From: Aerococcus kribbianus | Lineage (GTDB): Bacteria > Bacillota > Bacilli > Lactobacillales > Aerococcaceae | DNA length: 64,000 bases | Assembly: GCF_026805545.1 (NCBI RefSeq) | Contig: NZ_JAPRFR010000003.1 | Location: 1-64,000 of the forward strand | Direction: 5' to 3' | In this document: positions 22,579-25,140 of the stretch, one piece after another | Layout of the letters: each line of letters begins with the position of its first letter | Position numbering within the stretch: the stretch's first letter is position 1 | Made by a program: the position numbers and the translations under genes | The notes under the pieces: generated by a model | What the model was told of the DNA's origin: nothing | What the model saw: the letters and a program-made list of their open reading frames with translations, nothing else | Database searches by the model: none

Positions 22579-24876
22579 TTAAACTTTTTTCTTAGGGGCG
22601 CTGAGAAGGAAAGCTACCCCTGCTAGAAGACTTAAGACGATTAAGCCTACGTTAGCTTCTTGACTACCAGTGGCTGGTAAAGCACTTGATATGGCTACTT
22701 TTTCAGCTTTTACACTGTTTTGATTACTTTCTTTATAATCAGTTTCTTTGCTTAGCTTACCTTTTGGATCTACAGCTTGATTCGTCTCAATGTCATCCGT
22801 CTTCTGACTGTCCTGTTTGAGATCTTGGTCATCCCGACCTGTTACTGGCAGATCGTCTTTATGGTCAGCTTCTGAGTCAGGGTTTGTTTGGCCAGACTCG
22901 TCTTTAACGTCTTCTGTTTGATCGTTTTCTTGAACATCTTCCTCGTCCGATTGAAGTGAAGTCAAGCCCAATCCCCCACTAAGGTTAAAATGACTATGAC
23001 CAACAATCTCTGCCACTTGGTCCGCCAAGACACTCGGCAATGTCACTTGATCATCTTCTACTAGTAAAGAAATAGGATTAGAATAAAACCATAAATCACT
23101 ATAATTCCGTTCATTAACTTGGTTGAAATAAGTTCTTAAGGCTTCAAGATAATCCCTTTCATTTTCAAAGTCGTCTTCTTGAGGCTTTTCCATGTAGGGA
23201 TCAAGCAATGGATTCCCCAAGTCATCCGTTTCCCCTGCTGTGTTGACAGCATGATTAGTCCCGCGTAAACGGAGGTAGAAATCTTGGTCCACTATGAAAG
23301 GAAGATCAATATGGTAGTACCCTTCTTCATCTGCCTCGCCCCAGTCGGCACTAGTGAAACGTTGACCAATACGTGTGGTTGGATTGTAGTCATTAGTACG
23401 ATCAGTAACTTGGCCATAAATATTACCTAGGATAAGGTCCATATGGTCTAGAATAGGTTGGTTAGTAATCGTCGATTCATAACCTGGAAAGATTGGTTGG
23501 TAGTTATTTTTTTCCGTTGCTCGGAAACGAACCGATAAATTAGCAGGGGTATTCATAGGCACTGCCAAAGTTTGTCCCATTTCAACTCGCTGGTCACCTA
23601 CTGTAACAAAGAATTCTAGATCCTTTATTAAATCTCCATAAACGGACCAACTATTACCTGATTTCAATCCGCGTGCCACATCTTGGAAGGTATTACCAGT
23701 AACCTTAGTATAATTACGGCTATACTCACTTGGCCAATAACCAGAAGAATACAGTTCATTTGACGACACTTTGAAATGGAAATCAGAGTTAGCAAAGTTA
23801 TAGAAAGGACGCCCTTCACCTAGCATGGCATCCCAAACACCACCAACTTTGGCAACCATCAAATCGGCTCCTCCATAAATATCAGTGGTTTCGCCACGGT
23901 CACCACCCATTTGGTTACCAGGCATCCCTTCTAATCCAACTACTACATTAGGAGCCAAATCTTGGATGTCACGTATATCAGCTGCTTTTACTTCGCCACT
24001 CCCTCCATTATGGCGGGAAGGATGGTTAACTAGGAGTAGGGACTCTGGATAGTGTTTTTGCAACCAACGCAAGCCGTCATAGGAGTTACTCTTATCAGCT
24101 TTGACATTATCGCGCGGGCCAAACACATTGCTTTCATTGTAGTGAAAAGTTTCTGTCGGAGTATCGTAAGCATATAACCACTCAAAATGCCGATAAGCTT
24201 CTAATGGTACTCGGTTGGTCCCATCTTCAATAATGGCAACCGTCGCATGGTCCAAACCAAACATGTCCCACTCAAAACCAGGATAATAGATTTTACCTGC
24301 ATATTTCCCTTGAGATTTCAACTTATTGTATTGCTCAACCTGTTGGGCTAGCGACTTCCAAGTTGGTTTTTGAGCCACTTCTTCACCATTGACATCACGG
24401 TCAGACCCACGCAAATGGTCAGCTGTCATATAATAATCAAAGGGTTGGCTGTGGTCTAGTTGTGGTTGACCACCAGTAGGTAAATCAGACAGCTCTTCGC
24501 CAAAAGCAGCATCTAAAACATTTTCAAAAGTCATATAAGGTTCAGAAGCATCACTGGATTGGTTGGTATGGTTGTGGACTTCTCCTTGCACAATCCGCGT
24601 TTCACTAGGCACCGCTGGATCCTCCACTAAATGGCCTTGGTTTTGTAAATCAAGTGGATCTTCCGCTTTATTATAATAGTCACCAGTGTTTTCCGTTTCT
24701 AGCTCGCCATACTCATTATTACGTGTGACCACAGACTCTTCTGGTGCTTCTTCCAACATTTGAGCCACTTCTTCCGCTTCTGCCGCTTGAATCAATTGAA
24801 TTTGACTTGACCAAGCTGCCGCCAAAGTCACCGCTGATATAAATAAAATTCGTTTCCCAAGTCCCATCGCTTTCAA
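22579..24876 (-). CDS. LPXTG-anchored surface PHP-type phosphoesterase
   Basis: About 765 residues. A signal peptide (GKRILFISAVTLAAAW... ending near IQAAEA) is followed by a metal-dependent domain: GEVHNHTNQSSD, YMTADHL, LLVNHPSRHNGG and NFANSDFHF supply His/Asp ligands as in PHP phosphoesterases. An acidic, Asp/Gln/Lys-rich spacer comes next, then the sortase signal LPATG, a hydrophobic helix and the basic end APKKKV. The enzyme should act on phosphate esters outside the cell; the substrate is unknown. The start is TTG 24876 (GGGAGG 8 bp upstream) or ATG 24867. A PhoP-box-like array lies just upstream, suggesting induction by phosphate starvation. Confidence 0.8.
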   Translation of the reverse strand: MKAMGLGKRILFISAVTLAAAWSSQIQLIQAAEAEEVAQMLEEAPEESVVTRNNEYGELETENTGDYYNKAEDPLDLQNQGHLVEDPAVPSETRIVQGEVHNHTNQSSDASEPYMTFENVLDAAFGEELSDLPTGGQPQLDHSQPFDYYMTADHLRGSDRDVNGEEVAQKPTWKSLAQQVEQYNKLKSQGKYAGKIYYPGFEWDMFGLDHATVAIIEDGTNRVPLEAYRHFEWLYAYDTPTETFHYNESNVFGPRDNVKADKSNSYDGLRWLQKHYPESLLLVNHPSRHNGGSGEVKAADIRDIQDLAPNVVVGLEGMPGNQMGGDRGETTDIYGGADLMVAKVGGVWDAMLGEGRPFYNFANSDFHFKVSSNELYSSGYWPSEYSRNYTKVTGNTFQDVARGLKSGNSWSVYGDLIKDLEFFVTVGDQRVEMGQTLAVPMNTPANLSVRFRATEKNNYQPIFPGYESTITNQPILDHMDLILGNIYGQVTDRTNDYNPTTRIGQRFTSADWGEADEEGYYHIDLPFIVDQDFYLRLRGTNHAVNTAGETDDLGNPLLDPYMEKPQEDDFENERDYLEALRTYFNQVNERNYSDLWFYSNPISLLVEDDQVTLPSVLADQVAEIVGHSHFNLSGGLGLTSLQSDEEDVQENDQTEDVKDESGQTNPDSEADHKDDLPVTGRDDQDLKQDSQKTDDIETNQAVDPKGKLSKETDYKESNQNSVKAEKVAISSALPATGSQEANVGLIVLSLLAGVAFLLSAPKKKV

Positions 24877-24920
24877 TCCTATTACCTCCCTCAATCTAAC
24901 TCTGCCTTGTAGACTCTTTC

Positions 24921-24974
24921 ATTATAGCGAGTCAATGTCAATTTTAGGTAAAGCTTGTGTCAAATTTATGTAAA
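24921..24974 (-). promoter_or_regulatory. PhoP-box-like array and promoter of the surface phosphoesterase
   Basis: On the minus strand four hexamers TTTACA (24969-24974), TTGACA (24958-24963), TTTACC (24947-24952) and TTGACA (24936-24941) repeat with an exact 11-bp period, ending 9 bp before a perfect TATAAT (24921-24926). Four TT(N)ACA repeats at 11 bp match the B. subtilis PhoP operator layout. No normally spaced -35 is present, as expected for an activated promoter. Regulation is inferred. Confidence 0.7.
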
Positions 24975-25111: not shown

Positions 25112-25140
25112 AAAAAAGGCCGGAATCTAGTTCCAGCCTT
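25112..25140 (-). terminator. Terminator after rpoE
   Basis: Stem AAGGCTGGAA / TTCCGGCCTT with loop CTAGA, then TTTTTTG on the minus strand, 27 bp past the rpoE stop. Confidence 0.88.

Follow-up and report, generated by a model that had tools for sequence, protein, structure and literature searches.

On the minus strand of the window (the whole 64,000-nucleotide stretch of DNA analyzed here), a gene for a predicted wall-anchored metallohydrolase lies behind a promoter built of four regularly spaced hexamers and a −10 element. The features considered are as follows:

22579 to 24894, minus strand: longest open reading frame, 771 aa from a TTG at 24894, with the TTG at 24876 the likelier start
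24885 to 24890, minus strand: probable ribosome-binding site GGGAGG, read from the sequence, preceding the TTG start at 24876
24921 to 24926, minus strand: −10 element TATAAT, 9 bp (24935–24927) after the last box
24936 to 24974, minus strand: four-box Pho-type operator of period 11, with boxes TTTACA (24974–24969), TTGACA (24963–24958), TTTACC (24952–24947), and TTGACA (24941–24936)
25116 to 25140, minus strand: terminator-like hairpin of the upstream gene, separating that gene from the window promoter

Promoter Architecture

Read along the minus strand, the promoter runs TTTACA-taaat-TTGACA-caagc-TTTACC-taaaa-TTGACA-ttgactcgc-TATAAT, with start-to-start distances between boxes of 11, 11, and 11 bp. 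The array of TTTACA, TTGACA, TTTACC, and TTGACA that an earlier note on this DNA had described, with its 11-bp period and its 9 bp to TATAAT, is thus confirmed at these positions. A promoter scan listed no −35/−10 pair ending at this TATAAT (24926–24921), as is expected of an activator-dependent promoter.

The consensus box of Bacillus subtilis PhoP is TT(A/T/C)ACA, according to PMC12404567, with further background on Pho boxes available from PMC4415409. Against this consensus, which comes from another organism, only the first window box is exact and the other three carry one mismatch each, two of them having at position 3 a G that the consensus excludes; the four units are in register at N5, and a strict pair of TT(A/T/C)ACA boxes 4–6 bp apart is absent. 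In comparison to the PhoP-activated promoters of B. subtilis, the window promoter is alike in its direct hexamer repeats at ~11 bp before the −10 element, and differs in that it holds two TTGACA boxes and in that the pst regions of Aerococcaceae favor a box 9 bp before the −10 element.

The Predicted Wall-Anchored Enzyme

The predicted protein starts with a signal-like N-terminus, continues with a PHP/CehA-McbA-like domain (residues ~99–612) and a low-complexity linker, and closes with an anchor region of LPATG, a hydrophobic stretch, and KKKV. Residues H107, H109, H160, E208, H291, E322, D371, and H373 are invariant in all five aligned orthologs (the window protein included), as are the L, P, T, and G of the LPxTG motif, the hydrophobic stretch and basic tail being recognized by eye. 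These eight residues fit the series HxH, H, E, H, E, DxH, which we take to be the ligand list of PHP-like domains. Both the LPATG end and the eight PHP-like ligand positions agree with the earlier description of the protein as an LPXTG protein with PHP-type metal motifs.

The window protein itself scores under the cutoffs of the relevant profiles, namely the LPXTG models (PF00746, 15.8 of 20 bits; TIGR01167, 13.9 of 15.9 bits), the CehA/McbA model NF038032 (35.9 bits against a curated cutoff of 80, around the C-terminal metal motif), and DUF3604 (PF12228; 18.6 bits against a gathering cutoff of 20.4, at residues 99–170, around the N-terminal metal motif). NF038032 is matched below E 0.001 by all five aligned orthologs. 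Relatives were found on 22 plasmid records, and the ten listed show 28.5–35.4% identity over parts of residues 100–613; six of these ten are annotated as phosphoesterase, which is annotation and not a test. An AlphaFold2 model of the enzyme, from a four-row alignment, had a mean pLDDT of 32.3 and was unusable, and four sequence matches to solved structures (E 0.13–0.25) were taken as chance.

CehA, from the same broad family, hydrolyzes carbamates. In comparison to CehA/McbA and DUF3604 proteins, the window protein is alike in its PHP-like metal residues and in the NF038032 matches of its orthologs, and differs in its scores below cutoff, its predicted anchor, its length of ~770 aa, and its occurrence, as far as found, in 7 of 395 genomes of the order. 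Judged by sequence, it is distantly related to CehA/McbA-type proteins, has PHP-like metal residues, and carries LPATG near its C-terminus.

Orthologs and Their Promoters

A protein search placed the gene in 6 of 76 genomes of the family (the source genome of the window, G001, G002, G019, G021, and G067), with a seventh match covering the C-terminal end alone; the G002 gene carries one internal TGA. In an order-wide search of 395 genomes, with two candidates scored per genome, the catalytic part was found in these six and in G259 (a 5.7-Mb assembly; one internal TAA), and 30 other genomes of the order, matched only from profile position 575 on, were rejected as relatives. A two-pattern scan of species genomes provided the named relatives Facklamia lactis, Vaginisenegalia massiliensis, Aerococcus sp. 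HMSC062A02, and Ignavigranum ruoffiae.

To score promoters, we used a matrix of box and −10 columns from five foreign pstS promoters (G019, G021, G067, G068, and G030), picked from the pstS upstream regions of 20 foreign genomes of the family for a full four-box array with 9 bp to the −10 element. This training set holds no sequence of the source genome and no phosphoesterase promoter; being selected by architecture, it favors sites built likewise. Of the 20 foreign pst regions, 14 hold an array with a simple box score of at least 20 of 24 and six do not, and the pst promoters of Aerococcus, including that of the source genome, differ upstream in arrangement from the four-box training sites.

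The window site obtains 34.0 bits by this matrix, and the runner-up on either strand of the 64 kb obtains 10.95. The earlier note had proposed that orthologous promoters be compared, and when this was done among the 75 other genomes, a TTTACA-type array of uneven quality was found before all five other orthologs, in each case as the top-scoring place of the locus. The G021 array obtains 34.4 bits (TTTACA/TTTACT/TTTACA/TTTATA, 9 bp, TAAACT), followed by G002 with 15.5 bits (TTTACA/CACACA/TTTACC/TCAATA, 9 bp, TATATT), G001 with 13.6 bits (TTTACA/CACACA/TTAACC/TCAACA, 9 bp, TATATT), G019 with 12.9 bits, and G067 with 8.8 bits. In both G019 and G067, the register between two distal TTTACA boxes and a third TTTACA slips by 1 bp, and degenerate letters (TAAAAA and TTAATA) fill the slot 9 bp before the −10 element.

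These scores bear on whether the window array could be a chance run of A+T-rich hexamers, given that intergenic DNA is A+T-rich. Across 100 random windows drawn from an order-2 Markov model, the mean maximum was 7.4 bits and the highest 17.2, so by score alone the arrays of G001, G002, G019, and G067 (8.8–15.5 bits) lie within the range of random 64-kb windows, and it is their place, boxes, and 9-bp spacing that speak for them, not their score. However, none of the 100 random windows reaches the score of the window site, and arrays stand at the promoter in five of five orthologs despite their differing letters, which makes a chance origin exceedingly improbable.

The pst Cluster of the Source Genome

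In the source genome (G000; 1.58 Mb, 6 contigs), the genes for a regulator and a kinase share one row with pstSCAB and directly precede it; pstS matches PF12849 and the regulator matches PF00486. The kinase passes the NCBIfam PnpS cutoff (437.5 bits against 400), the regulator stays under that of YycF (260.9 bits against 340), and another regulator, in L015, passes YycF (406.2 bits) and was taken as WalR. The B. subtilis PhoP receiver (1mvo) ranks third among the solved relatives of the pst regulator (E 4.9e-47), and the solved relatives listed for its DNA-binding half include the WalR/VicR domains 2zxj, 2hwv, and 2d1v.

Upstream of pstS in this genome, TTTACA occurs three times at 11-bp intervals, and TTTACA-N9-TATAAT follows closer to the gene; a search for the same boxes before the pst genes, also suggested in the earlier note, thus found them with the same 9-bp spacing. 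Across 21 pst upstream regions (20 foreign and that of the source genome), TTNACH-N9-TAWNWT occurs in 15, the next commonest distance between these elements, 12, occurs in seven, and on the reverse strand the 9-bp spacing occurs in one.

We note several further observations on this cluster. The two halves of PstS (L014 8431–9600) align to PF12849 in swapped order, as they do in many listed genomes of the family. Downstream, pstB (L014 5624–5816) is followed by uvrA and not by phoU, and a PhoU-like open reading frame (by eye) is present on contig C3 (L077), close to a nusG-like gene. In comparison to the streptococcal PnpRS-pst system, the source genome is alike in its kinase, which passes the PnpS model, and its PstS, with halves swapped against PF12849, presumably resembles streptococcal PstS; a putative difference is that predicted wall-anchored phosphoesterases stand behind like arrays in the source genome.

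Genes behind Pho-Type Arrays

Two sequence-only models were used to find further arrays, one (R2) built on the five pst sites of foreign genomes and one (R1) on these plus three foreign phosphoesterase promoters. In the source genome, 150 of 436 first-look candidates were scored with R2 and 150 of 271 with R1, so that sites may have been missed. With E below 0.003, the two models agree on seven places, among which the window site ranks second with R2 (E 1.1e-6) and first with R1 (E 3.5e-8); at six of the seven, a −10-like hexamer lies 9 bp after the box slot, by eye (for pstS, at the nearer box). The features at array sites elsewhere in the source genome are as follows:

L104, 2933 to 5326: protein of 797 aa with a purple-acid-phosphatase N-domain, a calcineurin-like domain, and an LPATG anchor over the Pfam cutoff
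L105, 7441 to 9905: second purple-acid-phosphatase-type surface protein, its frame split into two open reading frames in the assembly
L106, C1:45786: array site without an open reading frame
L107: UgpC-like ATPase, two permease-like open reading frames (by eye), UgpB-like binding protein, and metallo-beta-lactamase-type protein, with the matches to the UgpC and UgpB models under cutoff
pstS: one of the seven sites

Two places were kept out of the gene set. Strong Pho-like boxes at C4:98853–98892 (plus strand), the last of the seven sites, have no −10 element at 9 bp and no clear gene, and at C3:89823 a weaker match (E 0.035) precedes a nusG-like gene.

A search of ten hand-picked relatives with R1 returned 92 matches (E up to 0.05), and 30 of these were retrieved as loci and their downstream genes read. 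By this reading, 21 of the 30 loci concern phosphate acquisition (seven pstS, two phosphoesterase orthologs, four purple-acid-phosphatase-like genes, two alkaline phosphatases, three phosphonate-binding-like genes, and three transporter genes tied to glycerol phosphate by likeness only), one is a glycosyltransferase, and eight are other genes or nothing clear. Since seven of the 30 are training sites, the share among new loci is 14 of 23. A Pfam scan of ten of the proteins returned two alkaline phosphatases, three calcineurin-like or purple acid phosphatases, two phosphonate-binding proteins, one solute-binding protein, one glycosyltransferase, and one protein without a match. In the source genome and its relatives, the genes behind such arrays thus appear, from their sequences, to serve mostly phosphate acquisition. 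As a separate observation, the glycosyltransferase of G019 (L136 1561–2724) is of GT4 type and stands behind a Pho-like array; it possibly serves phosphate-free membrane lipids.

This gene set also bears on a second candidate regulator. The boxes could be WalR/VicR sites, which are likewise 11-bp direct repeats and are near-identical to them on the opposite strand, in which case the gene would belong to a cell-wall regulon. The WalR consensus, TGTWAH-N5-TGTWAH according to PMC9210968, resembles TTTACA repeats when read backwards, and in the arrays of pstS, L105, L106, and L107 a strict pair is present in this backward reading. The source genome has a walR (YycF 406.2 bits, cutoff 340), and the enzyme is a wall protein by prediction. 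In the window array, the four units show 1, 1, 1, and 0 mismatches to TGTWAH. As the array departs equally from the PhoP and the WalR consensus, by three mismatches over the four units, the choice between the two regulators cannot rest on consensus. In contrast, no strict TGTWAH pair occurs in the window array or elsewhere in the 64 kb, and the pair next to walR, before a LysM-like gene (by eye), differs from the window array both in orientation, which is opposite, and in distance, with 22 bp to TATAAT. Furthermore, no autolysin was seen behind the seven sites of the source genome, where the gene set is one of phosphate acquisition. Control by WalR is thus disfavored by orientation, distance, and gene set rather than by consensus alone, and we regard it as very unlikely.

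A Possible Short RNA behind a Pho-Type Array

At the array site without an open reading frame, the array (C1:45786) is followed by 9 bp, TATAAT, and then ~80 nt (C1:45701–45785, minus strand; L106 1202–1286). This stretch is predicted to fold into three hairpins (−25.3 kcal mol–1, z −4.36), has two C-rich loops, GCCCCA and CCCCCAA, and ends in seven T with an intrinsic terminator. It is flanked by an ABC-F gene and an ABC exporter gene, and the gene after it has its own TTGCAT-N17-TATAAT (by eye). In G006, from a second species, a locus between the same two genes (C3:50520–50602, minus strand) has retained the array with its 9 bp to the −10 element, the two C-rich loops, and the terminator (z −4.43).

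When a model of this putative short RNA was run against 76 genomes, the strong matches were confined to the two genomes it was built from; six further matches (E 0.015–0.075) were discounted as relatives, and neither locus matched Rfam up to E 1. A DNA search with the short RNA and its operator gave matches in 74 of 76 genomes (E up to 1), mostly to the operator part, and from this search G006 alone was accepted as a homolog. Pho-like arrays without a clear open reading frame also occur in two further Aerococcus genomes, G014 (L122 1501–1693; z −4.70) and G001 (L139 1501–1716; z −2.45, for the folded part only), and in both the array leads into a stretch that has CCCC-containing loops and a T-rich end. 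We see about even chances that the Pho array drives a phosphate-sparing RNA of ~80 nt that masks G-rich ribosome-binding sites under phosphate shortage, with the transcripts of G014 and G001 that lack an open reading frame as its functional analogs. A literature search on Pho-linked small RNAs found none on an array-driven short RNA.

Interpretation of the Promoter and Enzyme

Taking these data together, it is highly probable, on sequence grounds, that an activator-type Pho promoter drives a sortase-anchored metallohydrolase whose likely role is phosphate release from an organic phosphoester. Under phosphate shortage, the PnpS/PhoR-type kinase beside pst would phosphorylate the OmpR-type regulator (PhoP/PnpR), which would then bind head to tail on the four boxes, whose 11-bp period is about one helical turn. 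At the last box, 9 bp before the −10 element, the regulator would substitute for the −35 contact that RNA polymerase lacks here. The product would be a secreted, sortase-anchored metallohydrolase that most likely hydrolyzes an organic phosphoester outside the cell to release its phosphate, with pstSCAB and the UgpC-like transporter, behind like arrays, importing the products. PhoP binding, the response to phosphate, and phosphoester cleavage by the enzyme are steps that we infer, the last of them from the regulon: as the array is like that before phosphate-uptake genes, the enzyme is probably made for phosphate scavenging. Pho control of a wall-displayed scavenging enzyme, as the earlier note had proposed, gains support from the ortholog arrays, the boxes before pstS, and the gene set; of the refuting outcomes named in that note, the two open to a sequence check, a lack of the repeats before orthologs or in the pst promoter, did not occur.

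The operator could also be of Pho type while the enzyme serves another purpose, such as the removal of wall or teichoic-acid substituents or the cleavage of a non-phosphate ester or amide. The name of the CehA/McbA family derives from non-phosphate hydrolases, and known Pho responses include teichoic-acid turnover. However, pst, the UgpC-like operon, and purple-acid-phosphatase-like surface proteins stand behind like arrays, and six of the ten plasmid relatives listed are annotated as phosphoesterase, albeit by annotation only; we thus consider a role other than scavenging rather unlikely, with appreciable weight nonetheless. Phosphate scavenging remains the preferred reading, and the promoter is most probably a new case of a known kind of Pho promoter, placed upstream of a surface metallohydrolase whose family is loosely known.

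A literature search on PhoP and phosphate or the Pho regulon in Aerococcus found no paper on such a gene set. The sites described here provide a sequence-based map of the genes that Aerococcus putatively turns on under phosphate starvation, predicted wall-anchored phosphoesterases among them, and the promoter rule of a box, 9 bp, and a −10 element (15 of 21 pst regions) is usable for finding Pho promoters in the family. If confirmed, the array-driven short RNA would add a post-transcriptional arm to the phosphate response.
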